Source: Streptomonospora mangrovi
GTDB taxonomy: Bacteria > Actinomycetota > Actinomycetes > Streptosporangiales > Streptosporangiaceae
Assembly: GCF_027604915.1 (NCBI RefSeq)
Contig: NZ_JAJAQC010000043.1
Location: 1-64,000, forward strand
Direction of reading: 5' to 3'
Length of the DNA stretch: 64,000 bases
Part shown: positions 10,677-60,762 of the stretch, piece by piece
Numbering within the stretch: the first letter of the stretch is position 1
How the letters are laid out: every line of letters starts with the position of its first letter
Notes under the pieces: generated by a model
Databases searched by the model: none
Told to the model about the DNA's origin: nothing
The model's input: the letters and a program-made list of their open reading frames with translations, nothing else
Translations under genes and position numbers: made by a program

Positions 10677-11639
10677 TCAGGGCCGCGCGAGCAGCACGGC
10701 GAAGTCCCCGGCGGGGTCGGTCCACCAGTGCTCAAGGCGGAAGCCGGCCCGGCCCAGCTCCGCCTCGACCCCCGCGCGGCGGAACTTCGCGGAAATCTCG
10801 GTGCGCACCTCCTCCCCCGCCGCGAAGTCGACGGTCAGGCCGATGGCGCGCACGGCCGCCCGCTGCGCCGTGCGCGCGCGCAGCCGCATCTCGATCCACT
10901 CCGCGCGGGGGTCCCACAGCGCCACGTGGTCGAAGTCCTCGGGGGCGAAGTCGGCGTCGAGTTCCCGGTTGAGGACGCGCAGCACGTTGCGGTTGAACTC
11001 GGCGGTGACGCCGCGCGCGTCGTCGTAGGCGGCCACCAGCCGCGCCGGGTCCTTCACCAGGTCCAGCCCCAGCAGCAGGGTGTCGCCGGGGGCGAACCCC
11101 TCGCGCAGGTCGGCGAGGAAGGACACCCGCCGGTCGGGGGGCTGGTTGCCCAGGGTGGAGCCCAGCACCGCGACGGCGCGGCGGCCCCCGGCGGGCAGCA
11201 GGTGCAGGTGGCGCTCGAAGTCGGCGACCACCGCGTGCACCTCCAGGCCGGGGTAGGCGGCGCCGATCGCGGCGGCCGACTCCCGCAGGAAGGCGCCGCT
11301 GACGTCGACGGGCACGAACCGGCGCAGGGTGCCCCGAGCGCGCAGGGCGTCCAGCAGCAGCCGGGTCTTCTCGCCGGAGCCCGCGCCCAGCTCCACCAGG
11401 GTGTCGGCGCCGCAGGCGCGGGCGATCTCGGGGGCACTGCGGCGCAGGATGGCCCGCTCGGCGCGCGTGGGGTAGTACTCCGCCAGCGTGGTGATCTCCT
11501 CGAACAGCGCGCTGCCGCGCTCGTCGTAGAACCACTTGGGCGGCAGCGACCGCGGTCGCGCGCCCAGGCCCTCGGCGGCGTCGCGGCGCAGGGCTTTGGC
11601 CAGGTCGTCGGGTGTCAGGTAGTGGTCGATGCGCGGCAT
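10677..11639 (-). CDS. egtD: L-histidine N-alpha-methyltransferase (EgtD)
   Basis: Trimethylates histidine with S-adenosylmethionine to give hercynine, the first committed step of ergothioneine synthesis. It has 320 residues. The SAM-binding motif is LVELGAGSGEKTRLLL (about 83-98). The N-terminal PPKWFYDERGSALFEEIT and the central LGSTLGNQP are typical of the EgtD/DUF2260 family. The start ATG 11639 has GGGGGAG upstream. It is the last gene of the egtA-B-C-D order; the gap to egtC is 16 bp, so they are co-transcribed. Confidence 0.95.
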   Translation of the reverse strand: MPRIDHYLTPDDLAKALRRDAAEGLGARPRSLPPKWFYDERGSALFEEITTLAEYYPTRAERAILRRSAPEIARACGADTLVELGAGSGEKTRLLLDALRARGTLRRFVPVDVSGAFLRESAAAIGAAYPGLEVHAVVADFERHLHLLPAGGRRAVAVLGSTLGNQPPDRRVSFLADLREGFAPGDTLLLGLDLVKDPARLVAAYDDARGVTAEFNRNVLRVLNRELDADFAPEDFDHVALWDPRAEWIEMRLRARTAQRAAVRAIGLTVDFAAGEEVRTEISAKFRRAGVEAELGRAGFRLEHWWTDPAGDFAVLLARP

Positions 11640-11655
11640 CGGCTCCCCCGTTTGC

Positions 11656-12399
11656 TCAGTCGACCGCGCTGATGCCGGTCAGGCGGTATCCGTGCTGGTC
11701 GGCGGTGACCAGGGTCCGGTCGGGCACCCGCCGCCAGGCGGGGTCGTCGTCGAGGGGTTCGGAGGCCAGCCACACCCCGCCGGCGCCGTGGCGCACGTAG
11801 AGGGTGTCGCCGGCGGCGGTGGCGGCCAGGCCGCGGCCGTCGGCGGCCAGCAGGTTGTAGCGCCCGGCGGAGCAGGCGCGGGCCTCGCACGCCACCCGCG
11901 CCAGCGCCGCGCCCGTGGGCGCCCCCGCCCGCCACAGCCGCACGGCGGCGGCGAACAGCGGCGCGGAGTCCACGGGGGTGCGGGCGTCGAGGACCCCGCG
12001 CGGCAGGGGGTGGCCCAGCCGCGCGGCGAGTTCCTCGTGATCGTGTGCCGCGCCGTTGTGGGAGAACAGCCGGGTGTCGGCGCGGAAGGGCTGGGCGCAG
12101 GACTCGTCGGTGCCGAACCCGGGGGTGGCGTCGCGCACGGCGGCGACCAGGCAGGTGGTGGTGAGCGCCTGGGCGGCGTCGGCGAAGGAGGCGTCGGCCC
12201 AGATCGGCATGGCGCGCCGGTAGCGCAGCGGGGCCGGGCGGCCCGGGATGTACCAGCCGACCCCGAAGCCGTCGGCGTTGACGGTGCCGTGGCTCTGCTC
12301 GCGCGGCGCGTAGGACTGGGTGAGCAGCGAGAACGGCGCGGCGTAGACCAGGTCGTGCACGGTGCGGGGGGCGCCGAGGTAGGCGAGGTGGCGGCACAT
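11656..12399 (-). CDS. egtC: Gamma-glutamyl-hercynylcysteine sulfoxide hydrolase (EgtC)
   Basis: A class II glutamine-amidotransferase-like enzyme of 247 residues that removes the glutamyl group from the hercynylcysteine sulfoxide made by EgtB. Cys2 (MCRHLAYLG) becomes the N-terminal nucleophile after Met removal. NADGFGVGW and LFSHNGAA match the conserved amidotransferase motifs. It lies 40 bp after egtB and 16 bp before egtD. The start ATG is preceded by GGAGG about 10 nt upstream. Confidence 0.94.
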   Translation of the reverse strand: MCRHLAYLGAPRTVHDLVYAAPFSLLTQSYAPREQSHGTVNADGFGVGWYIPGRPAPLRYRRAMPIWADASFADAAQALTTTCLVAAVRDATPGFGTDESCAQPFRADTRLFSHNGAAHDHEELAARLGHPLPRGVLDARTPVDSAPLFAAAVRLWRAGAPTGAALARVACEARACSAGRYNLLAADGRGLAATAAGDTLYVRHGAGGVWLASEPLDDDPAWRRVPDRTLVTADQHGYRLTGISAVD

Positions 12400-12439
12400 C
12401 AGCCGGCCGCCTCCCCGCCGCCCGCGCGGCGCGCGGCGC

Positions 12440-13840
12440 TCACCGGCGGCCCCCGCCGCGCCCGCCCTCGTCGGGGTCGGCGTCGCGGGCGCACCGGAAC
12501 CCGGCGAAGATCTGCCGGCGGATGGGGTAGTCCCAGTTGCGGAAGGTGGCGCGCGCGGCGGTGGGGTGGGTGGCCCACGACCCCCCGCGCAGCACCTTGT
12601 AGCCGCCGCCGAAGAACACCTCGGAGTACTCCCGGTAGGGGAACGCCGTGAAACCGGGGTAGCCGGTGAAGTCGGTGGCGGTCCACTCCCAGACGTCGCC
12701 GAGCATCTGCACGGCGCCGCAGGGCGCGGCGCCCTCGGGGAAGGCCCCGGCGGGCGCCGGGCGCAGGAGGCGCTGGCCGAGGTTGGCGTGGCGCGGTCCG
12801 GGGTCGGTGTCGCCCCAGGGGTGGCGCAGCGAGGCGCCGGTGGCGGGGTCGTGGCGGGCGGCCTTCTCCCACTCGGCCTCGGTGGGCAGGCGCTTGCCCG
12901 CCCAGCGGGCGTGCGCCTGGGCCTCGTAGAAGCACACGTGCTGCACAGGCTCCTCGGGCGGCAGCGGCTCCACGCGGCCCAGGCGGCGGCGCAGCCAGCC
13001 GCCGCCGGTGTCGCGGACCCAGAAGGCGGGGGCGCGCTTGCCCGAGCGGGTGCGCCACTCCCAGCCCTGCGGGCTCCACCAGCGGGGGTCGTCGTAGCCG
13101 CCGTCGGCCATGAAGTCCAGGTGGGCGGCGTTGGTGACGGCGGCGGTGTCGATGTAGAAGGCGGGCAGGTCGACGGTGTGGGCGGGCCGCTCGTTGTCGT
13201 AGGCCCAGGGGTCGTCGTCGGTGCCCATGGTGAAGGGGCCGGCCGCCACCAGCACCTCGGCCGGGAGGCGGTGGCCGGGGGCGGGCCGGGGCGGCGGCGC
13301 GGCCAGGCCGGGCAGCACCGGCCGCCCGCGCCGCAACTGGTGGGTGGCCAGCATGGTCTCGTCGTGCTGGTGCTCGTGCTGGATGACCATGTGGTAGACG
13401 AACCCGTCGGCCAGCAGCGGGGTACCGGAGTCGAACCGGGCGCGCTCCAGGGCGTCGAGCACGCGGGCGCGCACCCGCGCGTTGTAGTCGCGGGCCTCGC
13501 GGGGGGTCAGCAGGGGGAGGCTGACGCGCTCGGCGCGCGGGTTCTCGAAGGCGTCGTAGAGGACGTCGATGTCGGGCCGCAGCGCCTCGCCCCCGGCGGC
13601 GGCGCGCACCAGCCACTGCTCCTCGTAGTTGCCGACGTGGGCGAGGTCCCACACCAGCGGCGACATCAGCGGCGAGTGCTGGGCCAGCAGCTCGGCCTCG
13701 TCCAGGGCCTCCACGGTGAGGCCGACGCTGCGGCGGCGGCCCTGGTCGAGTTCGGCGGCGATGCGGGCGCGCAGGCGGTCGGGGTCGGGGCGGGTGCCGG
13801 CGGCGGGCGGCCGGGCGGGCCGGTGCGTCGGGCGGGTCAT
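12440..13840 (-). CDS. egtB: Hercynine oxygenase (EgtB)
   Basis: A non-haem iron enzyme that joins hercynine and gamma-glutamylcysteine through a sulfoxide C-S bond. It has 466 residues. The DinB-like N-terminal domain carries the three histidine ligands: His68 (DLAHVG) and the H-x3-H pair His155/His159 in QHEHQHDE. The C-terminal FGE-sulfatase domain includes TMGTDDDPWAYDNERP and VLRGGSWATHP. The start ATG 13840 has AAGGAGG upstream. Use of gamma-glutamylcysteine is inferred from linked egtA and egtC. Confidence 0.95.
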   Translation of the reverse strand: MTRPTHRPARPPAAGTRPDPDRLRARIAAELDQGRRRSVGLTVEALDEAELLAQHSPLMSPLVWDLAHVGNYEEQWLVRAAAGGEALRPDIDVLYDAFENPRAERVSLPLLTPREARDYNARVRARVLDALERARFDSGTPLLADGFVYHMVIQHEHQHDETMLATHQLRRGRPVLPGLAAPPPRPAPGHRLPAEVLVAAGPFTMGTDDDPWAYDNERPAHTVDLPAFYIDTAAVTNAAHLDFMADGGYDDPRWWSPQGWEWRTRSGKRAPAFWVRDTGGGWLRRRLGRVEPLPPEEPVQHVCFYEAQAHARWAGKRLPTEAEWEKAARHDPATGASLRHPWGDTDPGPRHANLGQRLLRPAPAGAFPEGAAPCGAVQMLGDVWEWTATDFTGYPGFTAFPYREYSEVFFGGGYKVLRGGSWATHPTAARATFRNWDYPIRRQIFAGFRCARDADPDEGGRGGGRR

Positions 13841-13859
13841 GGCGTGGGTCCTCCTTCAC

Positions 13860-13891
13860 CCGCGGCGCGCCCCTGGGCGGGCGCGCCGCGG
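13860..13891 (-). terminator. Hairpin between egtA and egtB
   Basis: A perfect 13-bp inverted repeat (CCGCGGCGCGCCC and complement) with a 6-nt loop ends only a few bases upstream of the egtB ribosome-binding site. It is either the egtA terminator or an attenuating structure that tunes egtBCD expression relative to egtA. The 178-bp gap around it holds no gene. Confidence 0.6.
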
Positions 13892-14018
13892 CGGTGGCGG
13901 GTCGGTGGCGCCGGGTGGCGGGCGCCGGGCGCGCGGGCGGCGCGTCCGGGCGCTGGGTGCGGCGGTTCGGCGGTGCGGTGGGTCGCGGTGCGGTGAGCGG
14001 TGGCGCGGCGGGCGCCGG

Positions 14019-15224
14019 TCAGGCGGCCGGCGCCAGGTGGTGCAGGTCGGCGGGGCAGCGCCCGCGCTCCACGAAGCACTCCCGGTAGTCCTCCACCACG
14101 CCCGCCAGGCCGGCCTCGCCCATCCGCTCCAGCGCCGCGCCGGCGGCGGCGAAGCAGGTGCGGGCGCAGGCGGCCAGGTCGGGGTCGGCCAGGGAGCGGG
14201 CCGCGGCGCGCCGCCACAGCCCCGGTCCGGGGTCGGCGCCGCCGCCCAGGCGCTCGGTGGCCTCGGCGGCGGTGTCGGCCGCCGCCGGGTCGTCGAGCAG
14301 CGCGGCGGCCACGGCGATGGGCACCGCCAGCCAGCGCGCGGGCAGCGCGTCGATCATCCGCAGCTCCAGCCACCCGCGCGGGCGCACCGGCGGGAACAGG
14401 GTGCTGAGGTGGTAGGCGAGGTCGTCGCGGGTGGGCCGGCGGCGGTGGCGGCACGCCAGCCAGTCGCCGAACGCGATCCCGGGGTCGACCTCCCAGGGGC
14501 CGTCGTCGGCGCGGATGGTCATCAGCCGCGCCCGCAGCGCGTAGGCGGTCCAGGCGGCGACCGGGTCGCCGCGCCCGGGCGCGCGGGTGCGGGAGGGGTC
14601 GATGCCCTCCCACACGGCCCACCGGCTGGAGCGCCAGCCGGTGGCGCGGCCCCGGTGGACCGGGGAGTTGGCGAAGGCGGCCACCAGGACCGGCCCCAGC
14701 CGGTGGGCGAGCCGCCAGCGCCGGGCGGCGTCGGCGGCGTCGGCGCCGATGTCCAGGCACACCTGGAGCGACGCGGTGCTGCACATCATCAGGCGGCCGG
14801 TGGCGCATCCGGCGGAGTCGAAGTAACGCTCCATGGCCGCGTAGCGCGGCTGGGCGAGCTGGCGCACGGGCGGGCGCCGGGGATCCAGGCCCACCCCCTC
14901 CAGGCGCAGTCCGGCGGCACGGAGGCGGCGGCCGATGTGGTCGGTGTCGGCGGCGAGGGCGGCGTGGGCGGCCCCCGGGCCGGGGAGGGGCGGCGAGCTC
15001 AGCTCAAGCTGCCCTCCGGGTTCGTAGGTGACGGCGCTCCCGCCGGGCAGCGGCCCGGCCTGGGCCACGGCGGCCGACACGGAGCGGATGGGAACGGGTG
15101 CCCCCGGGCGGGCGGGATCGGTGACCAGCCATTCGGCTTCGGCGCCCACGCGGCCCGGAGGGCCGGTCTTGAAGCAGACACCGTTGATGTAGTCGTGCAC
15201 GTCGGACTCGGTGAGGTAGCTCAA
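14019..15224 (-). CDS. egtA: Glutamate-cysteine ligase (EgtA)
   Basis: Makes gamma-glutamylcysteine from glutamate, cysteine and ATP, the sulfur donor for EgtB. It has 401 residues. It shows the GCS2-type motifs VGAEAEWLV and YEPGGQLELSSPP near the N-terminus and LMMCSTASLQVCLD in the middle. The start is taken as TTG at 15224 because AGGAG sits 6 nt upstream and the protein then begins LSYLTESDVHDYINGVCFK, where the family begins; a GTG/ATG start further upstream would add an Arg/Pro-rich tail. First gene of the egt set. Confidence 0.88.
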   Translation of the reverse strand: MSYLTESDVHDYINGVCFKTGPPGRVGAEAEWLVTDPARPGAPVPIRSVSAAVAQAGPLPGGSAVTYEPGGQLELSSPPLPGPGAAHAALAADTDHIGRRLRAAGLRLEGVGLDPRRPPVRQLAQPRYAAMERYFDSAGCATGRLMMCSTASLQVCLDIGADAADAARRWRLAHRLGPVLVAAFANSPVHRGRATGWRSSRWAVWEGIDPSRTRAPGRGDPVAAWTAYALRARLMTIRADDGPWEVDPGIAFGDWLACRHRRRPTRDDLAYHLSTLFPPVRPRGWLELRMIDALPARWLAVPIAVAAALLDDPAAADTAAEATERLGGGADPGPGLWRRAAARSLADPDLAACARTCFAAAGAALERMGEAGLAGVVEDYRECFVERGRCPADLHHLAPAA

Positions 15225-15449
15225 GGCCGTCTCCTCGCTCGGCGGAGCTGACGTAGCTCTACCCCTGCCCGGTACCGGCCGCGCCCGAACTTCCGGGGCG
15301 GCGCGGGTCCGCTGACCCGGCGAGAAATTCACCCGTCGCCGACGCGAACGCGGGGCGGCCGTGGGCCGCGCCTTACCGGGGCGGGCCGGGGTCGGCCCAG
15401 ACCGCGGGCCGTTGCACGGTGACAGCGCCCGGCCCCCGAGGGCGGCGCC

Positions 15450-49814: not shown

Positions 49815-50684
49815 TCACCGCGGGCGGGCGAAGCGGCGGGAGGTCCAGGCCAGGGCGGCGGCGGTGCACGCGGCGACCAGCAGGAGTTCGAGGGCCACCG
49901 GCGGCTGCCAGCCGCCCCACTCCACCGTGGACAGAAAGGCGGCGGACTCGGCGGGGTCGGCGCCGCCCACGGCGGCGATGGTGCGGCGCTGGGCATCGAC
50001 GGCGTAGGTCAGCGGGTTGGCCAGGGCCACCGCCGCCATCCACCCGGGCATGGCGCTGAGCGGGAACATCATCCCCGACAGGAACAGCAGCGGGGTCATC
50101 AGCACCCCCAGCACGGTGTGGAAGGTCTGTATCCGGCGGATGGACACCGCCACCGCCGCTCCCAGCGCGGTCATGGCCAGGGCTGTCAGGCCCAGTTGGG
50201 CCAGCAGCGCGGCCAGCAGGCCCGGGTGGTAGGGGATCCCCACCAGCCCCGCGCAGGCCAGCACCACCACCGCGTTGCAGGTGGCCACGGTGGCGCCGCC
50301 CAGGCACTTGGCCAGCACCAGGGTGGAGCGGCGCACCGGCGCCACCAGCATCTCGCGCAAGAAGCCGCTCTCGCGGTCCCAGACGATCGAGGCTCCCGCC
50401 GAGACCGCCGGCGCCTGCGCGGCCATGACCAGCACCCCGGGGAAGAGGAACCGCAGGTAGGCGTCGCCCGCCGAGCCGTCGGCGCCGGACTCCGCGAGTA
50501 GGCGGGCCAGGCCCACCCCCAGGATGAACAGGAACAGCATCGGCTGGAACAGCGACACGGCGGCGCGGGCGGGGTCGCGGAGGTAGTGCAGCATCTCGCG
50601 GCGCCACACCATGGCGCCGGCCCGCAACTCCAGCGCGGCGCCGGCCGTGGGCGCGGCGGGGGCGGCCGGCGCGGCGGGGGTCAC
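49815..50684 (-). CDS. cinH: ABC-2 permease of the lanthipeptide cluster (CinH-like)
   Basis: Membrane half of an exporter, 289 residues, six helices. FQPMLFLFILGVGLARLL, FLFPGVLVMAAQAPAVSAGASIVWDRESGFLREMLVAPV and LFLSGMMFPLSAMPGWM are DrrB/ABC-2 motifs. GTG 50684 overlaps the ATPase stop (GTGA), so the pair is coupled. Gene order precursor-LanM-hydroxylase-ATPase-permease equals that of the cinnamycin cluster, where CinT and CinH are thought to export the peptide or give self-protection. It ends the cluster; the convergent UlaA gene stops 50 bp away. Confidence 0.88.
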   Translation of the reverse strand: MTPAAPAAPAAPTAGAALELRAGAMVWRREMLHYLRDPARAAVSLFQPMLFLFILGVGLARLLAESGADGSAGDAYLRFLFPGVLVMAAQAPAVSAGASIVWDRESGFLREMLVAPVRRSTLVLAKCLGGATVATCNAVVVLACAGLVGIPYHPGLLAALLAQLGLTALAMTALGAAVAVSIRRIQTFHTVLGVLMTPLLFLSGMMFPLSAMPGWMAAVALANPLTYAVDAQRRTIAAVGGADPAESAAFLSTVEWGGWQPPVALELLLVAACTAAALAWTSRRFARPR

Positions 50685-51703
50685 GGCGCGCCGCCCGGCG
50701 CGGGTGCGGCCCCGCCGGCGGCGGTGGCGGGGTGGCCGGTGTGGTGCATGAAGACGTCGTCCAGCGTGGGGCGGGCGACGCTGACCGCGTGGACGGCCAC
50801 GCCGAGGTCGGCGCACAGGCGCGGCACCAGGCCGGCGGCGTTCCGGGCGCGCAGGGTCAGGGTGTCGCCCGCCGCCGAGGCGGCCAGCCCGAAGCGGTCG
50901 CGCAGGACGCGGGCCGCGGCGGGGTTGTCGGCGGTGCGCAGCTCGACCCGGTCGGCGCCCAGGACCGCCTTCAGCTCGGCGGGGGCGCCCTGGGTCACGA
51001 TCCGGCCGGAGTCGACGATGGCGACGCGGTCGCAGTGGTCGGCTTCGTCCAGGTAGTGGGTGGTGAGGAACAGGGTGGTGCCCTCGTGCCGGCTGATGTC
51101 GCGCAGGTGCGCCCAGACGCGCGCGCGGGCGTGGGGGTCGAGCCCGATGGCGGGTTCGTCCAGGAACAGCACGCGCGGCCGGTGCAGGATGCCCCGGGCG
51201 ATCTCCAGGCGGCGGCGCATGCCGCCGGACAGGGTGCGCACGAGGTGGGCGCGGTGGCCGGAGAGCTCCACGAGGTCGAGGACCTCCCCGACGCGGTGCG
51301 GCAGGCCGGCGCGGGGCAGGCCGTAGAGGTCGCCGTGGAAGCGGAGGTTCTCCTCGACGGTGAGTTCGGGGTCGAGGGTGGACTCCTGGAACACCAGGCC
51401 GATGCCGCGGCGCACGGCGCCGGGCGCGGTGCGGGTGTCGTGGCCGCAGACCTCGGCCCGGCCGGCGGTGGGCGGCACCAGCGTGCACAGCATGGCGATG
51501 GTGGTGGTCTTGCCGCAGCCGTTGGGGCCGAGGAAGCCGAACATCTCGCCCTGGGCCACGGTGAGGTCGAGGCCGCGCACCGCCGCGACCACACCCGTGG
51601 ACGTGGGCCCGCCGACGGCGCGGCTGGCCGGGGCGGCGGCCGGATCGGGGCCGGACGCCCCGGGGCCGGGCCGCGCCCCGGGGCGGAGCCGGAGTGGGAA
51701 CAA
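50681..51703 (-). CDS. cinT: ABC transporter ATPase of the lanthipeptide cluster (CinT-like)
   Basis: The cytoplasmic ATPase partner of the ABC-2 permease, 340 residues. Walker A is GPNGCGKTTT at about 59-68 (Cys where most have Ala). The signature is LSGGMRRRLEIARG and Walker B is VLFLDEPAIGLDP. A DrrA-like C-terminal domain follows. TTG 51703 is taken as start because AAAGGA lies about 6 nt upstream; the resulting Pro/Gly-rich N-terminus of about 35 residues is unusual. Located 52 bp after the hydroxylase gene in the same direction. Confidence 0.88.
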   Translation of the reverse strand: MFPLRLRPGARPGPGASGPDPAAAPASRAVGGPTSTGVVAAVRGLDLTVAQGEMFGFLGPNGCGKTTTIAMLCTLVPPTAGRAEVCGHDTRTAPGAVRRGIGLVFQESTLDPELTVEENLRFHGDLYGLPRAGLPHRVGEVLDLVELSGHRAHLVRTLSGGMRRRLEIARGILHRPRVLFLDEPAIGLDPHARARVWAHLRDISRHEGTTLFLTTHYLDEADHCDRVAIVDSGRIVTQGAPAELKAVLGADRVELRTADNPAAARVLRDRFGLAASAAGDTLTLRARNAAGLVPRLCADLGVAVHAVSVARPTLDDVFMHHTGHPATAAGGAAPAPGGAP

Positions 51704-51755
51704 CGGGGTCCTTTCCGCGGTGCTGGCCGCTGGCGGGGGTGGAGCGGCGCGCGGG

Positions 51756-52682
51756 TCAGCCGTCCAGGCCGAGGCGCCGCTGCCAACCGTCGGGCACGAC
51801 GAACCCGAAACTCCAGCGGTCGGAGGCGGTGGGGTTGACGATGCAGTGCCAGAAGAGGCGGTCGGGGTCCTGCTCGACCTTGAAGAACCGCACGATCTTG
51901 GGCCGCTCGGTCAGGGTGACGAGTTCGCCGGTGTCGGGGTGCATGTACCGGAAGAACGAGGTCTCGGCGGAGGCGAACGGCGGGTCGACCTCGATGATGT
52001 ACATGCGCCAGCCGGGCTGGCTCTCGTTGGTGTGCCAGAGCCGGTAGCTGTTGGGCGGGTACCACATGCTGCCGGAGAAGCGGATCTCGCAGCCGAAGAG
52101 GTCTTCGAGGGCGGCGATGGTGCGCCCCTTGGCCGCGAGGTAGTCGAGGTAGCCGGGGTGGTCCACGTGCTCGTCCAGGTTGATGACGTGGAACTCGCGC
52201 TCGTTGCTGTCGGGAGGGCCGGGGCGGCCCTCGGCCTCGGCGGCGCGCTGGACGCCGGCCTCCCAGGCGCGGTACTCGGGGCTCCCGGGGGCGAGGTCGG
52301 TGGTGCGGAGGTCGTCGGAGCGGTGGCGCCGGGCGAAGGCGTCGAGGTCGACGGTGGGCGGCTTGATGGCCAGTCGCGGGATCTCGCTGAGCACGGGCTC
52401 GAACCCGGGGAGGTCGGTGAGTGAGTACTCGTGGTGGTAGAAGGACGTGCGGCCGGGGTCGGCGGCGGCCGGCTCGGGGGCGGGCGGCGGGCCGGGGGCC
52501 TCGCCCTCGGGCGGCACGAACGCCGAGGAGGCCGCGGCGAGGTCGGTGAGCTGGAAGTCGAAGCCGTGCCGGCGGCCCAGCGCGACCATCTCGCGGGCGG
52601 CGGTCATGGCGCGGAGTTGGGCGGTCAGCTCCCGCGAGGAGTAGACCGTGCGCAGGAACTGCGTGCAGGACTCGATGGACAT
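51756..52682 (-). CDS. cinX: CinX-like aspartyl hydroxylase with Nif11-like N-terminus
   Basis: Probable 2-oxoglutarate/Fe(II)-dependent hydroxylase that oxidises Asp15 of the core peptide, 308 residues. The C-terminal half (MWYPPNSYRLWHTNESQPGWRMYIIEVD to FWHCIVNPTASDRWSFGFVVPDGW) has His, Asp/Glu and Arg positions expected of such an enzyme. Residues 1-55 (CTQFLRTVYSSRELTAQLRA, REMVALGRRHGFDFQLTDLA) match a Nif11-like domain, a fold also used as RiPP leader. ATG 52682 follows AAGGGG and lies 2 bp after the LanM stop. Assigned by position, length and motifs. Confidence 0.85.
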   Translation of the reverse strand: MSIESCTQFLRTVYSSRELTAQLRAMTAAREMVALGRRHGFDFQLTDLAAASSAFVPPEGEAPGPPPAPEPAAADPGRTSFYHHEYSLTDLPGFEPVLSEIPRLAIKPPTVDLDAFARRHRSDDLRTTDLAPGSPEYRAWEAGVQRAAEAEGRPGPPDSNEREFHVINLDEHVDHPGYLDYLAAKGRTIAALEDLFGCEIRFSGSMWYPPNSYRLWHTNESQPGWRMYIIEVDPPFASAETSFFRYMHPDTGELVTLTERPKIVRFFKVEQDPDRLFWHCIVNPTASDRWSFGFVVPDGWQRRLGLDG

Positions 52683-52684
52683 CG

Positions 52685-55600
52685 TTACCCCTTCGCGGAG
52701 TCGGTGGCGGGCGGGTCGAGGAGCAGCACCGAGGGCACGCGGTCGGGGGCGGCCAGCCGCAGGAAGTGCATGCCCATACCGGAGATGCCGAGCATGAGCC
52801 CGGGGAAGAAGTCGGTGCTGTCGCCGGTGATGCCGTGGCGGGCCTCGTCGAAGGTGCGCCACTGGTTCTGCACCTGCACGTTGGCCTCCAACTGGAAGGC
52901 GGGGTCGTCGTGCAGGCGGCCGTAGCGCAGCAGGAGTTCGGCGTTGCCGGACCGGCCGTGGCAGAGGGTGTCGTTCATCAGGCGCGGGAAGTTGCGCACG
53001 GTGGCGGCCAGGGCGATCCCGGCCTCGCGCAGCAGGAGGTCGTCGTCGCGGCCGAGGAGGTCCCAGGCGCTGATGCGGCTGAGCCCGATCCCGGCGGCGC
53101 CGTTGCACCAGGCGTTGGCGTAGTGGCGGTTCTCGCGGACGACTCCCCCGCCGAAGGTGCGCAGGTCGTACCAGTCCTGGGCGGTGGGGTCGAAGTGGTA
53201 GGACTCGTAGGCGAACGCCCGGCGGCCGGCGGCGATGTAGTCGGGGCGGTCGATGCGCACCCCCAACTGGATGAGCGCCCAGCCCATGCCGGCGGCGCCG
53301 TGGGTGAACCCGGTGAGGTCGAGCTGGGTGGGGTCGGCGCCCTGCTGGGGCCAGCTCAGGGTGTCGCCGTTGTCGCGGGCGCGGCGCAGCAGGTGGTCGG
53401 CGCAGCGCACGGCCTCGGTGAGGCCGGCGCCGTCGGCCGCGGCGGCCAGCCCCAGCAGGACCGGGATGAGCCCGGCGGCGCCGCCGAGGATGTCGAGGTG
53501 GGGGTCGGCCTCGATGCGGTCGCCCAGGCCGGCGGTGAGCCGCACCGCGCGGTCGAGCAGCGCGGGGTCGCCCCAGAGGTGGTGCAGGTGGGTGAGCAGG
53601 TAGACCAGTCCGCCGGTGCCGGTGAAGGCGCCGATGCGCCGGTGGTCGTCGGCGTGGGCGAGGGCGTGGTGCAGCGCGCGTTCGGCCGCGGCGCGGACCC
53701 GGGGGTCGGGGGTGAGGTGGTCGAGGTAGGCCAGGAACAGCGCGATGCCCGCGGAGCCGAGGTAGAGGTCGGCCTCGATGTCGGCTTCGACGGGGGTGCC
53801 GTTGTCGAGCCGGTAGGAGGTCCAGGGCGCGGGGGCGCCGGGGTCGCGCAACTGGTCGCAGAGCCGCAGGCCGATGCGTTCGGCCTGGCCGCGCGCGGCG
53901 GTGACGAAGGAGGGGCTGGAGATCTCGCCGGCGGAGAGCCCGGCGGCGATGTAGTGCCGCTGCTGGGTGCGGTTCTCGGGCGAGAGCCGGCGGATGCGTT
54001 CGGCCGCGCCCTGCACCGGCGACTGCGCGAGGTAGGACGCCACGGCGGTGGTGTGGTCGTGGACCAGGCGGCGGTCGTGGGCGCCCACGGTGAACAGCGG
54101 GATGTCCATGCGCCACAGGGACTGGAGTTCGCATTCGGCCAGGACGCCGTGGGTGTCCCACACCCGGGGCGCGGCGCGCACCACCCGGGCGAGGAGGTCG
54201 ACCTCGAGGGGGTCGGCCAGCGCCTTGGGGTGGCGGGCGGACAGCAGGGCCTGGGCGTAGACCTGGGTGGCCCGGTTGATGAACCGCAGGGTGGCGCCGG
54301 AGAAGGCGTCGGCGACGTGCTGGGCGGTGCGGTCGGGCCACTGGCGGAACCAGTCGTAGACCCGGCTGAACCCGGTGGTGATGGCGTCGGCGTGGTCGCC
54401 GGGGTCGACCAGGTGGTCGCCCAGGAAGACGCGGTTGGCCGGGGTGGGGGCGACGCGGACGCCTTCTTCGTGGGTGACCGAGGCGGCGAAGGTCATGCGG
54501 GGGCCGCTGACGCGCGGGACGGCGATGGGCATCTCGTAGGCGGTGCCGCCGGCGTAGCCGCTGATGTTCATGGCGGCGGCGCCGTCGGCGCCCACGGCGG
54601 GCCGGGGCCATTCGAGCAGGCCGGTGTTGAAGACGGAGTCCAACAGGGTGCCCGAGCCCTCGATCTGGCCCTCGGGGCGGGCGCCGAGCACGGTCTCGCA
54701 GTCGCAGACGTAGGCGTTGCCGTCGGCGACGAGGATGTTCTCGAAGTGGAGGTCGCCGCCGCCCAGCACGTAGAACAGGGCGAGGTAGCCGCCGAGCTGG
54801 CGGTAGACGCGGTCGACGTCGGCGGTGGCGCCCACGCGGTTGCGTCCGGCGGGGATGGCGGCCTCGTAGCCGTAGGCGCCGCGGTCGAGGACGGCGCGGG
54901 TGGCGAAGTCGACGGCGCCGGATTCGCGGATGCGGGTGAGCAGGTCCTGGACGGCGGCCTCGGCGGCGATGCTGCGGGGCTTGTAGACCAGGCTGCCGGT
55001 GCGGCCGTTGTCGAGGTCGACCTGGACGAACGCCACCTGCTGCGCGCCGGCGTGGGGGTCGGAGTGCCCCAGGGTGAGGGCGCGGAACCGGGTGATCGGG
55101 CTCTCGAAGAACGCGGCGGAGAGGTCGGCGGCGTCGGCGCAGAGGCGGTCGATGAGGTGGGCGCCGTAGTCGGCGAGCAGGCGGGTGACGTGGGCCAGCC
55201 ACCGGCCCAGCACGGGGTAGCGGAGGTAGAAGGAGTGGTAGGCGGCGCCGTCGGCGAAGGCGGTGTCGAGGAAGGCGAGGTAGTCGGCCTCGGTGGCGGC
55301 GGCCTTGTCGAGGCCGGTCCGCGCACAGTGGACGTTGCCCTCGGCCTCGACCGCCCAGGCGAGGTGGAGGTCGAAGCGGTCGAGCAGGTGGTTCTGGAGG
55401 TCGGCCACGACGCGGCGGTCGACGAGCCCGGAGCGGGCCGCGGGGTTGCGGTCGCGGGCGGACTCCAGGCGGCGGCCGAGTTCGAGGAGGAAGGGTTCGC
55501 AGGCGGTGGCCAGGCGGCCGTAGTAGGTGTCGGGTGCGCGCCAGGGGGCGTCGGGGTCGGCGGCGGGGGCGTGGTCGTAGGTGTCCAGGGCGGCCTGGTA

Positions 55601-55933
55601 GGTGGGCAGCCAGTCGGCGTGGAGGTCGGTGAAGACCCGCCGGACGGAGTCGTCGGCGTGGGGCAGGTGGAGTTCGTGCAGGCGGTAGGCGGTGAGGATG
55701 CGGGTGTAGTCGGCCTGGTCGAGGCCGGCGGGCGCGGCGGCGGAGCCGGGTTGGGGCTGGCGCCGCAGCCGGTCGGCGAGCTTGGCCGAGGTGCGCTCGA
55801 TCTTCCAGGTGTCGAAGGGGTCGAGTTCGGCGGCCGCGCCCGGACGGGGGTCGCCCAGCGCGTCGACGATCCGGATGCGCTCCGCGAGGTTGCACGCACG
55901 GGCCGCGATGTCGGCGGGGTAGGGGTTTCCCAT
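52685..55933 (-). CDS. cinM: Class II lanthipeptide synthetase LanM (CinM-like)
   Basis: Bifunctional enzyme that phosphorylates and dehydrates Ser/Thr of the precursor and then closes (methyl)lanthionine rings. It has 1082 residues. The N-terminal DUF4135 dehydratase domain carries SLVYKPRS (about 314-321), GGGDLHFENIL (391-401) and CDCETVLG (410-417). The C-terminal LanC-like cyclase has FTHGAAGMGW (876-885) and zinc ligands Cys943 (WCNG), Cys991 and His992 (CHG). All key residues are present. ATG 55933 has AGGAG 11 nt upstream. It follows the precursor after 124 bp containing two hairpins. Confidence 0.95.
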   Translation of the reverse strand: MGNPYPADIAARACNLAERIRIVDALGDPRPGAAAELDPFDTWKIERTSAKLADRLRRQPQPGSAAAPAGLDQADYTRILTAYRLHELHLPHADDSVRRVFTDLHADWLPTYQAALDTYDHAPAADPDAPWRAPDTYYGRLATACEPFLLELGRRLESARDRNPAARSGLVDRRVVADLQNHLLDRFDLHLAWAVEAEGNVHCARTGLDKAAATEADYLAFLDTAFADGAAYHSFYLRYPVLGRWLAHVTRLLADYGAHLIDRLCADAADLSAAFFESPITRFRALTLGHSDPHAGAQQVAFVQVDLDNGRTGSLVYKPRSIAAEAAVQDLLTRIRESGAVDFATRAVLDRGAYGYEAAIPAGRNRVGATADVDRVYRQLGGYLALFYVLGGGDLHFENILVADGNAYVCDCETVLGARPEGQIEGSGTLLDSVFNTGLLEWPRPAVGADGAAAMNISGYAGGTAYEMPIAVPRVSGPRMTFAASVTHEEGVRVAPTPANRVFLGDHLVDPGDHADAITTGFSRVYDWFRQWPDRTAQHVADAFSGATLRFINRATQVYAQALLSARHPKALADPLEVDLLARVVRAAPRVWDTHGVLAECELQSLWRMDIPLFTVGAHDRRLVHDHTTAVASYLAQSPVQGAAERIRRLSPENRTQQRHYIAAGLSAGEISSPSFVTAARGQAERIGLRLCDQLRDPGAPAPWTSYRLDNGTPVEADIEADLYLGSAGIALFLAYLDHLTPDPRVRAAAERALHHALAHADDHRRIGAFTGTGGLVYLLTHLHHLWGDPALLDRAVRLTAGLGDRIEADPHLDILGGAAGLIPVLLGLAAAADGAGLTEAVRCADHLLRRARDNGDTLSWPQQGADPTQLDLTGFTHGAAGMGWALIQLGVRIDRPDYIAAGRRAFAYESYHFDPTAQDWYDLRTFGGGVVRENRHYANAWCNGAAGIGLSRISAWDLLGRDDDLLLREAGIALAATVRNFPRLMNDTLCHGRSGNAELLLRYGRLHDDPAFQLEANVQVQNQWRTFDEARHGITGDSTDFFPGLMLGISGMGMHFLRLAAPDRVPSVLLLDPPATDSAKG

Positions 55934-55985
55934 GGTCCAGTCGGCTCCTGCCGTCGAAGGGGCGGCGCGGGGCCGCCGGTGGCCG

Positions 55986-56010
55986 GGCGGGCCGGCGGCG
56001 CCGGCCCGCC
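55986..56010 (-). terminator. Second hairpin between precursor gene and lanM
   Basis: A perfect 10-bp stem (GGCGGGCCGG and complement) with a 5-nt loop follows the 56017-56041 hairpin in the direction of transcription. The tandem pair probably attenuates read-through so that precursor mRNA exceeds lanM mRNA. Confidence 0.65.
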
Positions 56011-56016
56011 ACGGGT

Positions 56017-56041
56017 CCGGGCGGGGACCCGCCCCGCCCGG
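56017..56041 (-). terminator. First hairpin after the precursor gene
   Basis: A perfect 10-bp stem (CCGGGCGGGG and complement) with a 5-nt loop begins 17 nt past the precursor stop codon. It acts as a partial terminator or as mRNA 3'-end protection for the precursor transcript. Confidence 0.65.
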
Positions 56042-56057
56042 CCGCTCTCAGGGACTG

Positions 56058-56297
56058 CTACTTGGTGGAGCCGTCACACACGACGGTGAAGGGGCCCCAA
56101 CTGCAACTGGTGCTGCACGCGAAGATCTCGCTGCTGACGATGCCGTCGGTCCAGGAGTCGACGGCCGCCTGGTCGGCCTGCTCGACCGCGGTGGGAAGCG
56201 CGTCGGCGGTGAGGCCGAAGGCGGCGGGGTCGGCGAGGACCGCGGCGCGGAACTCGGCGTCAACGGCGGCCTGGTGCATCAGCGTGGTGGTGGACAT
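56058..56297 (-). CDS. cinA: Cinnamycin-type lanthipeptide precursor
   Basis: A 79-residue peptide: 60-residue leader and 19-residue core CSTSCSWGPFTVVCDGSTK. Every residue used for cross-links in cinnamycin is present: Cys1-Thr18, Ser4-Cys14 and Cys5-Thr11 for the three thioether rings, Ser6-Lys19 for lysinoalanine, and Asp15 for hydroxylation. GPF at 8-10 and CDG at 14-16 are conserved. The leader is related to that of CinA (VDAEFRAAVLADPAAFG, then ALPTAVEQADQAA) and ends EIFA, where cinnamycin has EAFA. ATG 56297 follows AAGGAG. Confidence 0.96.
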   Translation of the reverse strand: MSTTTLMHQAAVDAEFRAAVLADPAAFGLTADALPTAVEQADQAAVDSWTDGIVSSEIFACSTSCSWGPFTVVCDGSTK

Positions 56298-56378
56298 GTG
56301 TTCTCCTTCGGTGGTGTGGCGATGTGCCGATTGCGTGAGGTGGTGATGGACCGGGCGGCCCCGGCGGGCCCCGGTGGT

Positions 56379-56735
56379 TCACTCGGACTTCTCGGCGGTG
56401 AGACGCATGCCGGTCTGCTGCTCGACGTTGGCGAGTTCCCGCATGGCGGCGCCCATGTTGTCGCTGTCGCTCTGCCAGTCGACCACCTGCCTCTCCTGGG
56501 GCGTGATGTCGTCGCGGAGCCAGAAGGACTCCAGCCACCCCTTGACGGCGTGGGGGTGGAGGTCGGGGACGGGTTTGACGTGGGCCAGCAGGGGCTCCTC
56601 GTGCACGGCGAGGGCGGTCTGGAGGAGTTCGCGGAGTTTGCCGTCGGGCGGCAGCAGGGAGCACAGGACCACCAACTGCTGGATGCGGCGGATGGTGTCG
56701 ACGCCTTCGTAAATGGTCGGTTCTTTTGCGCTCAT
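56379..56735 (-). CDS. durN: DurN/Cinorf7-like lysinoalanine-forming protein
   Basis: A 118-residue protein, the length of DurN and Cinorf7 (about 119), which form the Lys19-Ser6 lysinoalanine bridge in duramycin and cinnamycin. It is mostly helical (VDTIRRIQQLVVLCSLLP, KLRELLQTALAVHEEPLLAHVKP, VVDWQSDSDNMGAAMRELANVEQQTGMRL). No catalytic motif is expected, because DurN works with residues of the substrate. It lies directly upstream of the precursor, as in known clusters, and its promoter region carries SARP-like repeats. ATG 56735 follows GGAAGG. Confidence 0.88.
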   Translation of the reverse strand: MSAKEPTIYEGVDTIRRIQQLVVLCSLLPPDGKLRELLQTALAVHEEPLLAHVKPVPDLHPHAVKGWLESFWLRDDITPQERQVVDWQSDSDNMGAAMRELANVEQQTGMRLTAEKSE

Positions 56736-56915
56736 CGGCGAACCTTCCTGGAGTGGCCCGTGGGAGGCTGTGCGAGCGTGGCCGCGGAGATCCGGCGGAG
56801 GCGATGTGCGGTTTCGAGCGACCCGCCACGAGGTCCCGGACATGGCGGCCGACTGGTTTTTCCGCGGATCCGCTCCAGCCATATAGGAGCATAGACGAAA
56901 GGCCGCCACCGGACC

Positions 56916-56945
56916 CTTTCATTCGTCTTACTTACTTCTTTCATT
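56916..56945 (-). promoter_or_regulatory. SARP-type direct repeats upstream of the lanthipeptide operon
   Basis: On the minus strand AATGAAAG occurs twice, at 56938-56945 and 56916-56923, 22 bp apart (two helical turns), within an AT-rich island between the SARP gene and the durN-like gene. SARP activators bind direct heptamer repeats spaced by 11 or 22 bp near the -35 region. A -10-like TATGCT follows at 56888-56893. Start of durN is about 180 bp downstream. Confidence 0.6.
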
Positions 56946-57000
56946 TGCCGCATCGCAGGGCCACCCGCATTCCCGGAAAAGCACCATTCTCCCGATTGGT

Positions 57001-57855
57001 TCACTGCTCGATTCCGCTTTTCTCCGGCAGTGCCCCGGTCTGCCCGGTTCGGGCGGCGGGGACCGTGGCCGGGGCGCCGGCCGCGGTGGCGAGGCCGGGA
57101 TCGCCGCGCAGCACGGCGAGGTGGAGGTCGCGCGACTCGGGGCAGGGGTCCATGCCGGTCTCCTCGCGCAGGCGCGCGCTGAGTTCGGCGTAGGTCTCAA
57201 GCGCCTCGACCCGCCGGCCGGCGCGGTAGAGGGCCAGGACCAACTGGCGCCAGAAGCCCTCGTGGAAGGGGAACTGCCGCACGAGGTCGCGGAGTTCGGC
57301 GATCAGGGGGTCGTGGCGGCCGCGGGCCAGGGCGAGTTCGTGGGCGCGCTCGCGCACCGGCAGCCACTCCTCGGTGACGCGCGCGACGAGGTCGCGCCGC
57401 AGCGCCTCGGAGCGGATCTCGGGCAGGACGGGCACGCTCCACAGCGCCAGGGCCTGGCGCAGGGCCGCGGACTCGGAGTCGTGGTCGCCGCGCGCGGCGG
57501 CCTGCCGGGCGTGGGCGGCCAGCCGCCGGAAGCGCAGGAGGTCGAGCTGGTCAGGGCCGGCCTCGACCAGGTAGCCGGCCGAGCAGGTGCGCACCACCGC
57601 CGACAGTCCCGGGGTGTGGTGGTCGAGGGTGTGGCGCAGCCGGGTCAGGCACGTGTGGAGCGCGGCCCGGGGGCTGAGCGGCGGGGTGCGGTCCCATACC
57701 CAGCGCACGAGCTGGTCCTGGGCGACGGGTTCGTTGGCGCTGAGCAGAAGGGCCGCCAGCAGCGCCCGCTGCTTGCCCGCGGAGAGCCGGACCGGGTTGC
57801 CGTGCACGGCCACCCGGAGCGGCCCCAGGACAGAGAAAGCCACCCCTTGAGCCAT
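57001..57855 (-). CDS. SARP family transcriptional activator
   Basis: A pathway-specific activator of 284 residues. Residues 5-100 are the OmpR-like winged helix (FSVLGPLRVAVHGNPVRLSAGKQRALLAALLL, LVRWVWDRTPPLSPRAALHTCLTRLRHTL). Residues 100-255 are the bacterial transcriptional activation domain (FRRLAAHARQAAARGD to YAELSARLREETGMDP). SARP genes activate cinnamycin and kyamicin production. It lies upstream of and in the same direction as the lanthipeptide operon with direct repeats between. ATG 57855 follows GGGGAA; a longer frame was rejected. Confidence 0.92.
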   Translation of the reverse strand: MAQGVAFSVLGPLRVAVHGNPVRLSAGKQRALLAALLLSANEPVAQDQLVRWVWDRTPPLSPRAALHTCLTRLRHTLDHHTPGLSAVVRTCSAGYLVEAGPDQLDLLRFRRLAAHARQAAARGDHDSESAALRQALALWSVPVLPEIRSEALRRDLVARVTEEWLPVRERAHELALARGRHDPLIAELRDLVRQFPFHEGFWRQLVLALYRAGRRVEALETYAELSARLREETGMDPCPESRDLHLAVLRGDPGLATAAGAPATVPAARTGQTGALPEKSGIEQ

Positions 57856-58267: not shown

Positions 58268-59872
58268 TCAGATGTGCACGACCGGAGCGTCGGTCCCGGA
58301 GTCGTTCCGCTGCGGCTTCATGAACATCGCCAGGACGGCCGCGGCCACCATGACGGCGGCGGCGATCCCGAAGGACAGGTGCATGCCGTCCAGGAACGCC
58401 AGGTTGCTGGCGTGGGTGATGGCCTCGGCCGTGGCGCCCTGGGCCGACCCCACGACCTCGCCGCCCTGGGACACCGCGCTCTGCATCTCCTGAGCCTCGG
58501 CGGCCGACAGCTCCCCCAGCCCGGCGTCGGCGAAGTGGCCCGGCAGGGTGGAGACGATCACCAGCGACAGCACCGCGCCCAGCACGGCCGTGCCCAGCGA
58601 GCCGCCCAACTGCATGGCGGTCTGCTGGAGGCCCGACGCGACACCGGCCAGCGACACCGGCGCCGCGGTGATCATGGCGGCGGTGGCTCCGGTCATGACC
58701 AGGGTCAGCCCGACGCCCAGCAGCAGGAACCCCGCCGAGGTGGCCACGACGCCGGTGTCGAAGCTCAGCCGCGACAGCAGGAACAGGCCGGCCGCGGCGA
58801 TGAGCAGCCCGGCGACGGTGGGCACGCGGGTGCCGAAGCGGTCCATCAGCCGCCCGGCCGGGGTGCCGAGCACGCCCATCATCAGGGTGAGCGGGAGCAG
58901 TTGCAGGCCGGTCTGCATGGGGCTGAGGTCGCGCACGCCCTGGAGGTAGAAGGTCACGAAGAACAGCGACCCCATGAGGCCGAGCGCCACCAGGACCATC
59001 AGCACCACGCCGATGGACAGCGCCGGCAGCCGGAAGATGGCCAGCGGCATCAGCGGGTCGGCGGCGCGCGCCTGCCACAAGACGAACCCGGCGCCGAAGG
59101 CCAGCGACACCGCCAGCACGGCCAGGGTCTCGGGGTGGGTCCAGCCCACCACCGGGGCCTCGACCAGCGCCCAGACCAGGGCGAAGATGGCCACGCTCAG
59201 CAGCAGGATGCCGAGGACGTCCAGGCGGGAGGAGGGGTCGGTGGCGCGGTTGGGGCCGATGAGCCACAGCGCCGCCGCGACCGTCACGATGCCCAGGGGC
59301 ACGTTGATGAGGAACGCGGCCTCCCAGCCGAAGGAGGACACCAGGATGCCGCCGACGATGGGGCCGGCCGCCATGGCGCCGCCCAGGATGCTGCCGAACA
59401 CGCCGAAGGCGCGGCCCAGCATGTGCGGCGGGAAGTTGGAGCGCAGCAGGCCCATGGCGGCGGGCGCGATGGTGGCGCCGAAGATGCCCTGGAGGATCCG
59501 GAAGCCCACCAGCACGGGCACCGCCCCCGAGAGCGCGATGCCGATCGAGGTGAGGGTGAACCCGACGACGCCGATCAGGTACATGCGGCGGTAGCCGAAG
59601 CGGTCGCCGAGCTTGCCCGAGGTGATGAGGAAGACCGCCAGGCCGAGCAGGTAGCCGTGGGTGACCCACTGGAGTTCGGCCAGCGAGGCGCTGAGGTCGC
59701 GGGCGATGTCGGGGTTGGCCACGGCGACGATCGTGCCGTCGAGGGCCACCATGACCACGCCGAAGGCGATGGCCACCAGCGTGCCCCAGGGGCCGCCGCG
59801 GAACCCGCGCGGCGCGGGCGGCGCCGGCGGCTGCCCCGGTTGGTGGATGGGTCTGGCGGCGGTGTCGGTCAT
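58268..59872 (-). CDS. MFS drug exporter, DHA2 (14-helix) family
   Basis: A proton-driven efflux protein of 534 residues with 14 predicted helices. VVMVALDGTIVAVANPDIARDL is DHA2 motif D1. SGKLGDRFGYRRMYLIGV is the MFS loop 2-3 motif A. FRILQGIFGATIAPAAMGLL is motif B, and FGSILGGAMAAGPIVGGIL is motif C. ATG 59872 has GGGGGAG upstream. It is divergent from a TetR gene, and its promoter overlaps a likely operator. It could help resistance to a drug or to the nearby peptide, but a terminator divides them. Confidence 0.92.
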   Translation of the reverse strand: MTDTAARPIHQPGQPPAPPAPRGFRGGPWGTLVAIAFGVVMVALDGTIVAVANPDIARDLSASLAELQWVTHGYLLGLAVFLITSGKLGDRFGYRRMYLIGVVGFTLTSIGIALSGAVPVLVGFRILQGIFGATIAPAAMGLLRSNFPPHMLGRAFGVFGSILGGAMAAGPIVGGILVSSFGWEAAFLINVPLGIVTVAAALWLIGPNRATDPSSRLDVLGILLLSVAIFALVWALVEAPVVGWTHPETLAVLAVSLAFGAGFVLWQARAADPLMPLAIFRLPALSIGVVLMVLVALGLMGSLFFVTFYLQGVRDLSPMQTGLQLLPLTLMMGVLGTPAGRLMDRFGTRVPTVAGLLIAAAGLFLLSRLSFDTGVVATSAGFLLLGVGLTLVMTGATAAMITAAPVSLAGVASGLQQTAMQLGGSLGTAVLGAVLSLVIVSTLPGHFADAGLGELSAAEAQEMQSAVSQGGEVVGSAQGATAEAITHASNLAFLDGMHLSFGIAAAVMVAAAVLAMFMKPQRNDSGTDAPVVHI

Positions 59873-59949: not shown

Positions 59950-60078
59950 TCGCTGACTGTTTTTCGCGCCCGCGGGTATCATCCGGACAGACACGCACTG
60001 ACGATGAGGTGAATGCGGTGAACGTAACGGCACGCGACGACATTTCGAGCGTCCGCTCCCGGGGAGGGCGTGCGTGAG

Positions 60079-60762
60079 ATGACCCACGACCGCGAGCAGA
60101 CCGGGCTCCGCGAGCGCAAGAAGGCCCGCACCCGCCAGGCCCTCGTCGCCGCCGCGCTGCGGCTGTTCGCCGAGCGCGGGTTCGACGCGGTCACCACCGA
60201 GGAGATCGCGGCCGAGGCCGACGTCTCCCAGCGCACGCTCTTCCGCTACTTCGCGAGCAAGGAGGAGATCGTGCTGTCGGTCCACGACCAGATCGAGGAG
60301 GGGTTCCGCCTCAAGCTGGCCGCCCGGCCCGCCGAGGAGCACCCCTTCACGGCGATGGTCAACGCCTTCGCCGACGCGTGGTCGGAACTGGAGCCCGCCG
60401 ACGTCGCGGCCCAACTCCAGGTGCTGCGCATCAGCAACGACTCCTCCCGCCTGCACGGCGCGCGCCAGGAGCGGGTGTGCTCACACCAGAACCGCCTCGC
60501 CCTCCTCATCGCCCGCCGCGCGGGCGTGGACCCCCGCCTCGACCCCCGCCCCGAACTCCTGACGGCGGCGTTCACCTCGGCCCTCCAAGTGGCCTTCGGC
60601 CGCTCGTGCCGCGCCGCCGGCCAGGACAACCTGCTGGAGGCCGTCGACGAGTGCCTGGCCCTGCTGCCCACCGCCCTCACGGCCGACTGGGACACCGCCA
60701 ACACCCCCGCCCACACCAGCACACCGGACGCGGACGGACAGATCCTCCCAGTCGGGGGGTAG
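60079..60762 (+). CDS. TetR family regulator of the MFS exporter
   Basis: A 227-residue TetR regulator. The HTH runs RERKKARTRQALVAAALRLFAERGFDAVTTEEIAAEADVSQRTLFRYFASKEEIV (about 11-65), of the subgroup with RTLFRYF. The C-terminal ligand domain is helical and its last about 25 residues are polar. Divergent location beside the MFS gene suggests it represses that exporter and itself. ATG 60079 is favoured; GTG 60070 is possible but only 2-3 nt from the GGAGG. Confidence 0.9.
   Translation: MTHDREQTGLRERKKARTRQALVAAALRLFAERGFDAVTTEEIAAEADVSQRTLFRYFASKEEIVLSVHDQIEEGFRLKLAARPAEEHPFTAMVNAFADAWSELEPADVAAQLQVLRISNDSSRLHGARQERVCSHQNRLALLIARRAGVDPRLDPRPELLTAAFTSALQVAFGRSCRAAGQDNLLEAVDECLALLPTALTADWDTANTPAHTSTPDADGQILPVGG

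Follow-up and report, generated by a model that had tools for sequence, protein, structure and literature searches.

We analyzed a stretch of 64,000 nucleotides from Streptomonospora mangrovi (contig NZ_JAJAQC010000043.1, positions 1 to 64,000; hereafter the window). Seven genes on its minus strand, between 49815 and 57855, almost certainly form a class II lanthipeptide cluster of the cinnamycin/duramycin group that looks complete. The precursor ends in a 19-residue core, CSTSCSWGPFTVVCDGSTK, which, judged by its sequence, appears to be new within a known peptide family. Finally, the cluster is compact, and it probably belongs to a larger unit that has been gained or lost at this genomic site.

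Gene content of the cluster

Each of the seven frames is open; their order is SARP, DurN-like protein, precursor, LanM, CinX-like hydroxylase, ABC ATPase and ABC permease:

57001..57855, minus strand: SARP-family activator, CinR1/KyaR1-like, 284 aa, ATG at 57855 (BTAD PF03704, E 1e-32, and Trans_reg_C)
56379..56735, minus strand: DurN-like lysinoalanine synthase, 118 aa (Pfam PF19375, 149.5 bits, E 3.5e-44)
56058..56297, minus strand: precursor, 79 aa, with a leader of 60 aa and a core of 19 aa (PF19398 DurB-like, 105.2 bits, E 2.2e-30)
52685..55933, minus strand: class II lanthipeptide synthetase LanM, 1082 aa (TIGR03897, 518 bits, cut-off 304)
51756..52682, minus strand: putative CinX-like Asp15 hydroxylase with an N-terminal Nif11 domain, 308 aa (orthology, position and predicted fold)
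50681..51703, minus strand: ABC exporter ATPase, CinT/KyaT-like (PF00005, ABC_tran, E 2.1e-31)
49815..50684, minus strand: ABC exporter permease, CinH/KyaH-like (PF01061, ABC2_membrane, E 1.9e-32)

A first-pass annotation made from the same letters had placed seven leftward genes here, and all of them were found on the minus strand. Its gene assignments were borne out by family models, orthology and the fold of the hydroxylase. It had also described the order as that of the cinnamycin core cluster, which holds except that the match is not exact for the SARP gene. Further comparisons agreed with these assignments. Residues 2-115 of the DurN-like protein matched the lysinoalanine synthase structure PDB 6c0g (E 2.4e-45), and the precursor scored 106.2 bits against NCBIfam NF033431 cinnamycin_RiPP (cut-off 35). 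The LanM carries PF13575 (DUF4135, E 3.8e-76) and PF05147 (LANC_like, E 4.7e-66) and matched the LicM2 and CylM structures. Its residues C943, C991 and H992, which we take to be the zinc ligands of LanC domains, were constant in a 20-sequence alignment (at most two gaps allowed). In the Marinactinospora thermotolerans locus L033, the SARP and ABC ATPase orthologs stand at the same positions (58% and 68% identical, respectively), and the permease is 70% identical to its counterpart there. The permease probably starts at GTG 50684, overlapping the stop of the ATPase gene. Because the G+C content of the cluster (74.0%) equals that of its flanks (74.2 and 74.3%), a horizontal arrival cannot be read from base composition.

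The product of 51756-52682 is supported as a CinX-like Asp hydroxylase by orthology, position and an oxygenase-like predicted fold. Orthologs 46-84% identical follow LanM in cinnamycin-type loci. Pfam recognized the Nif11 domain only, and in a Foldseek comparison with the PDB the predicted model (pLDDT 82, pTM 0.82, 14 sequences) had its best matches among Fe(II)/2-oxoglutarate prolyl hydroxylases (E 7.6e-6, probability 1.00). This fold match agrees with the oxygenase role given for CinX in PMC5408092. The N-terminal Nif11 domain (PF07862) was present in 14 of the 14 hydroxylase members scanned, namely the window protein and 13 relatives. Such domains are otherwise known from the leaders of ribosomally synthesized and post-translationally modified peptides.

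The precursor and its core peptide

The precursor reads MSTTTLMHQAAVDAEFRAAVLADPAAFGLTADALPTAVEQADQAAVDSWTDGIVSSEIFA, then CSTSCSWGPFTVVCDGSTK, then a stop codon, and its leader ends in IFA. There was no second precursor match in the 6.36-Mb genome (E up to 0.001). The core matches the 19-residue pattern CxxxCSxGPFTxxCDGxTK, which is given as the cinnamycin-type motif in PMC12837462. The first-pass annotation had stated that every cross-link and modification residue is present, and we read all of them at the expected positions: Cys1, Cys5 and Cys14, Ser4, Ser6, Thr11, Asp15, Thr18 and Lys19.

The same annotation had called the core unfamiliar. Neither the exact core nor its fragment CSWGPFT was described in the full texts searched, a body of literature with figure alignments, supplements and most subscription papers outside it. 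Within those texts the claim stands, but it was given too much weight, as the core has many relatives. We screened 33 loci with the pattern C...C..GP.T..C.G..[KR], setting aside the divergent PF19398 matches L047-L049 and L073-L079. A core was found in 32 loci, giving 24 distinct cores; the sole locus without the pattern was L030, a His-rich variant. Two relatives lie one substitution from the window core: CRTSCSWGPFTVVCDGSTK (L017, genome G128, from the genus of Nocardiopsis potens) differs by Arg2, and CSTSCSWGPFTVVCDGSSK followed by Q (L008/L044, genome G297, from the same genus as the window) differs by Ser18. The constancy of C1, C5, G8, P9, T11, C14 and G16 is built into the search pattern. 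Beyond these, position 4 was S or T, and positions 15 and 19 were D and Lys in 24 of the 24 distinct cores. Position 6 was S in 22 cores and T in two, and position 18 was T in 22 and S in two.

Two further features of this set were observed. First, 13 of the 32 cinnamycin-type precursors encode 1-4 residues beyond Lys19 (L003, L004, L007, L008, L009, L012, L016, L018, L020, L021, L022, L024 and L080). In addition, Thr6 replaces Ser6 in three of the 32 loci (L003, L004 and L023); such cores would yield a methyl-lysinoalanine bridge.

A cinnamycin-like scaffold might have lost its binding to phosphatidylethanolamine (PE) and acquired a different activity. Trp7 is not in the L033 core and is not known from those of cinnamycin and duramycin, and other DurB-like precursors of the same family carry clearly different cores. 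However, Trp7 is also present in Nocardiopsis potens and Actinoallomurus cores, the window core retains Gly8, Pro9, Phe10, Asp15 and Gly16, and the DurN-like and hydroxylase genes accompany it. Moreover, Pro9 is related to the PE pocket (O'Rourke et al., PMC5408092). We regard such a loss as extremely improbable, and predict that the core is that of a PE-binding-type peptide.

Predicted product and its biosynthesis

We infer the chemical steps, the ring topology, the PE binding and the antibacterial action from characterised relatives. The SARP would bind three repeats upstream of the DurN-like gene and switch the operon on. LanM would then dehydrate Ser4, Ser6, Thr11 and Thr18, and close a Ser4-Cys14 lanthionine together with Cys5-Thr11 and Cys1-Thr18 methyllanthionines, a pairing that we assume here. 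The CinX-like enzyme is expected to hydroxylate Asp15, and the DurN-like enzyme to bridge Dha6 to Lys19; the dehydrated residues and this bridge follow PMC6974636. Finally, the leader would be cleaved after IFA, the ABC pair would export the 19-mer, and the 19-mer would be expected to bind PE.

With four dehydrations and one hydroxylation, the predicted product is C82H117N21O26S3, with a monoisotopic mass of 1907.764 and [M+2H]2+ of 954.889; the deoxy form is predicted at [M+2H]2+ 946.892. The same mass rule reproduced the published formula of duramycin and its m/z of 1006.9262 (PMC6974636 Table 2), and the duramycin core used here agrees with that formula. A guessed kyamicin core did not fit the published formula of kyamicin and was dropped.

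Regulatory elements

Two candidate regulatory elements were found in the cluster:

56938-56944, 56927-56933 and 56916-56922, minus strand: three SARP-type direct repeats, ATGAAAG / AAGTAAG / ATGAAAG, with 11-nt spacing
55934..56057, minus strand: precursor-LanM intergenic hairpin, attenuator-like, with perfect 11-bp arms and a 3-nt loop

The repeats (56916-56944) lie 181-209 nt upstream of the DurN-like gene. The triplet ranked first in the 330 nt upstream, and 0.6% of 500 mononucleotide shuffles reached it. Nine distinct loci have a SARP match; a similar triplet ranked first in seven of the seven loci tested, and in five of them the fraction of shuffles reaching it was 0.004-0.048 (500 mononucleotide shuffles). 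The precursor-LanM gap folded at a z of -3.08, and none of 200 dinucleotide shuffles was equally stable. Across 14 loci (gaps delimited by tblastn, up to 170 nt long), z was -1.57 to -4.53 with 100 shuffles each, and the longest perfect hairpin arms were 10-14 bp in 11 loci and 6-8 bp in three. Compared with the hairpin of congener G297, that of the window is changed on both arms and the pairing is kept. For cinnamycin, O'Rourke et al. (PMC5408092) report a set of three hexameric repeats upstream of cinorf7, spaced by about 11 nt, as well as an attenuator in the region that separates cinA from cinM. The window is alike in having SARP repeats before the N gene and a hairpin in the gap from A to M.

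Comparison with named systems

A close named parallel in arrangement comes from M. thermotolerans, the source species of mathermycin. Its locus L033 carries all seven genes of the window cluster, arranged identically, with proteins 56-70% identical to those of the window, and its core, CASTCSFGPFTIACDGTTK, differs from the window core at seven residues. A review gives six substitutions (PMC10676316). Since the source species matches and this number fits the count against the cinnamycin core, we infer that the L033 core is that of mathermycin; the L033 genome is from strain DSM 45154 and mathermycin from strain SCSIO 00652. The 20-kb locus held no match to the major facilitator superfamily (MFS) or TetR protein encoded next to the window cluster (see below).

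The cinnamycin and duramycin clusters share the N, A, M, X, T, H and SARP genes with the window and additionally carry R, K, L and non-essential genes (PMC6974636 Table 1). The window core differs at five residues from the cores of cinnamycin and duramycin. Kyamicin has the compact N-A-M-X-T-H set with a SARP, as in the window, and according to PMC6974636 its cluster also has KyaR, KyaK, KyaL and Kyaorf11. In contrast, the 53 open reading frames (ORFs) scanned in the window, which include some overlapping or antisense frames, yielded no kyamicin-type kinase, response regulator or PE methyltransferase. The cinnamycin B locus of Actinomadura atramentaria (L036) shares N, A, M, X and the exporter, and gave no match to the window SARP; coerumycin of A. 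coerulea likewise shares N, A, M, X and the exporter (PMC12837462). The L036 core and the L026 core, CASTCSSGPFTFACDGSTK, each differ from the window core at six residues. Coerumycin, from another A. coerulea strain, may have the L026 core.

Relatives and conservation of gene order

Of 341 genomes of the same family, 38 contained PF19398 precursors, 35 of them above the cut-off; a separate scan of 30 genomes gave none. PF19375 (DurN) was found in four members of a 394-genome sample of the class, the genome of the window included, and in one of 35 genomes of family f17. It was found in none of 394 genomes of family f18, where the controls gave no matches either.

Thirteen loci came from named genomes, including N. 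trehalosi, N. potens, M. thermotolerans, A. atramentaria, Actinoallomurus species and an Oscillatoria metagenome-assembled genome. The search pattern used for them would miss cinnamycin's own core, and 12 of the 13 were already among the same-family PF19398 matches, so they added no new cores. By tblastn with the window proteins, DurN, precursor, LanM and hydroxylase were matched in all 13 loci, and both exporter genes in all except the Oscillatoria locus (12/13). The SARP was matched in five, at the same position in L031, L032, L033 and L035 and on the opposite strand in L034. The identical seven-gene order was found in L033 (M. thermotolerans), L031 (N. trehalosi), L032 and L035 (Actinoallomurus), L044 (the congener G297) and L081. 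The locus of G297 is a near copy, with the seven proteins 84-95% identical.

Precursors of two other kinds were met among the divergent matches. At L047:9769-9996, L048:9539-9826, L049:9552-9779 and L073:1894-2136, a DurB-like leader precedes a His-rich 17-residue core, for example CPATHHCIHTHVCRKTY, with three Cys and three Thr. In three 19.5-kb loci, LanM and both exporter genes adjoin these precursors, and no DurN or hydroxylase match was found there. Their sequences suggest a distinct group of lanthipeptides in which the PE-binding residues have been lost. In the six loci L074-L079, PF19398 matched weakly (above the cut-off in three), and the precursors have a different leader and cores such as CRNTCVSGWTIRCDGYTL. 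No LanM, DurN or hydroxylase match was found in the 5 kb examined around them; exporter or SARP matches were present.

Genomic site and co-travelling genes

Two genes beyond the SARP gene, on which the first-pass annotation was silent, may be accessory to the cluster:

58268..59872, minus strand: DHA2-type MFS exporter, possible accessory with a putative role (TIGR00711 EmrB, 267 bits, cut-off 230)
60070..60762, plus strand: TetR regulator, possible accessory, divergent from the MFS gene (PF00440, E 1.9e-20)

Both adjoin the cluster in the window, in G297 and in N. trehalosi, which belongs to another genus and has its cluster at the same site. The best MFS match elsewhere was 36-37% identical in all four cluster-less congeners versus 92% in the cluster-bearing congener, and the TetR gene had no match at the same site (the only place searched) in those four. 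The cluster itself was missing at this site in four of six congeners. A flanking phosphotransferase system (PTS) permease gene was found in all six genomes of the genus. In the cluster-less four, this gene and an acyltransferase-like gene (60871) are still neighbours, 1.1-7.7 kb apart versus 11 kb in the window. The 19 kb covering the site in these four gave no match to any cluster gene, nor to the MFS and TetR genes, except for an ABC ATPase in three of them, 29-32% identical to that of the cluster. Since the MFS and TetR genes were not matched at the site in cluster-less congeners and stand beside the cluster in N. trehalosi, the unit gained or lost probably extends from about 49.8 to 60.8 kb and so includes two genes beyond the cluster originally delimited.

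The absence of the cluster at this site from four of six congeners indicates that it is dispensable, and the wild-type strains behind kyamicin did not produce it in 13 media (PMC6974636). A cluster that is intact in sequence yet silent or decaying, with no product made, would fit both observations. Against this, all seven frames are open, the proteins of G297 remain closely similar, and the hairpin keeps its pairing despite changes on both arms. We therefore consider silence or decay very unlikely, and continue to read the locus as a cinnamycin-type cluster.

Evidence against this reading and the question of immunity

Several observations weigh against this reading. First, the product and its mass are predictions from the genes, and with Trp7, Ser2 and Thr3 in the core an extra dehydration is possible. 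In addition, the hydroxylase had no PDB relative by sequence (E up to 0.01), and its fold gave a TM of 0.26-0.33 by query length with a root mean square deviation of 12-17 among the 50 matches listed. The SARP triplet was not rare relative to shuffles in two of the seven loci (0.108 and 0.112). Finally, neither a CinL-type PE methyltransferase nor a CinKR-type pair was found beside the cluster (Pfam, 53 window ORFs).

The last observation bears on how the producer protects itself. The first-pass annotation was silent on immunity and two-component genes. Cinorf10 (CinL) is described as methylating PE under CinKR control (PMC5408092), and the cinnamycin and kyamicin clusters carry CinL and KyaL, respectively (PMC6974636). 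A cluster can belong to the cinnamycin type without this immunity route. The genome encodes a phosphatidylserine decarboxylase, so the host should make PE and need protection. The sole methyltransferase among the 53 window ORFs is an EgtD-like histidine methyltransferase (10677-11639, minus strand). It stands in a row with a glutamine amidotransferase, a DinB/FGE-sulfatase and a GCS2 gene (10677-15332, minus strand), an ergothioneine-type set. PF04191 PEMT was rejected as a proxy for CinL, as it gave one to three matches in each of six congeners regardless of whether the cluster was there. In L055 (family f17), the hydroxylase gene is followed by a 223-aa ORF whose length suggested CinL; this candidate was also rejected, as Pfam placed it as VWA7_N-like. 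No methyltransferase was found among ten proteins scanned in the flanks of other loci. In the published duramycin assembly, the resistance and regulatory genes lie on a different contig from the biosynthetic genes (PMC6974636), so distance is no proof that CinL is absent.

It is conceivable, although rather unlikely, that the producer of the compact cluster is protected by something other than PE methylation, such as export through the MFS pump at 58268-59872. If this were true, cinnamycin-type immunity would have more than one solution. A compact cluster with no obvious immunity gene makes self-protection testable. With its Trp7 and Ser2-Thr3, the core itself would enlarge the small group of natural peptides of the PE-binding type, which is of medical and imaging interest.

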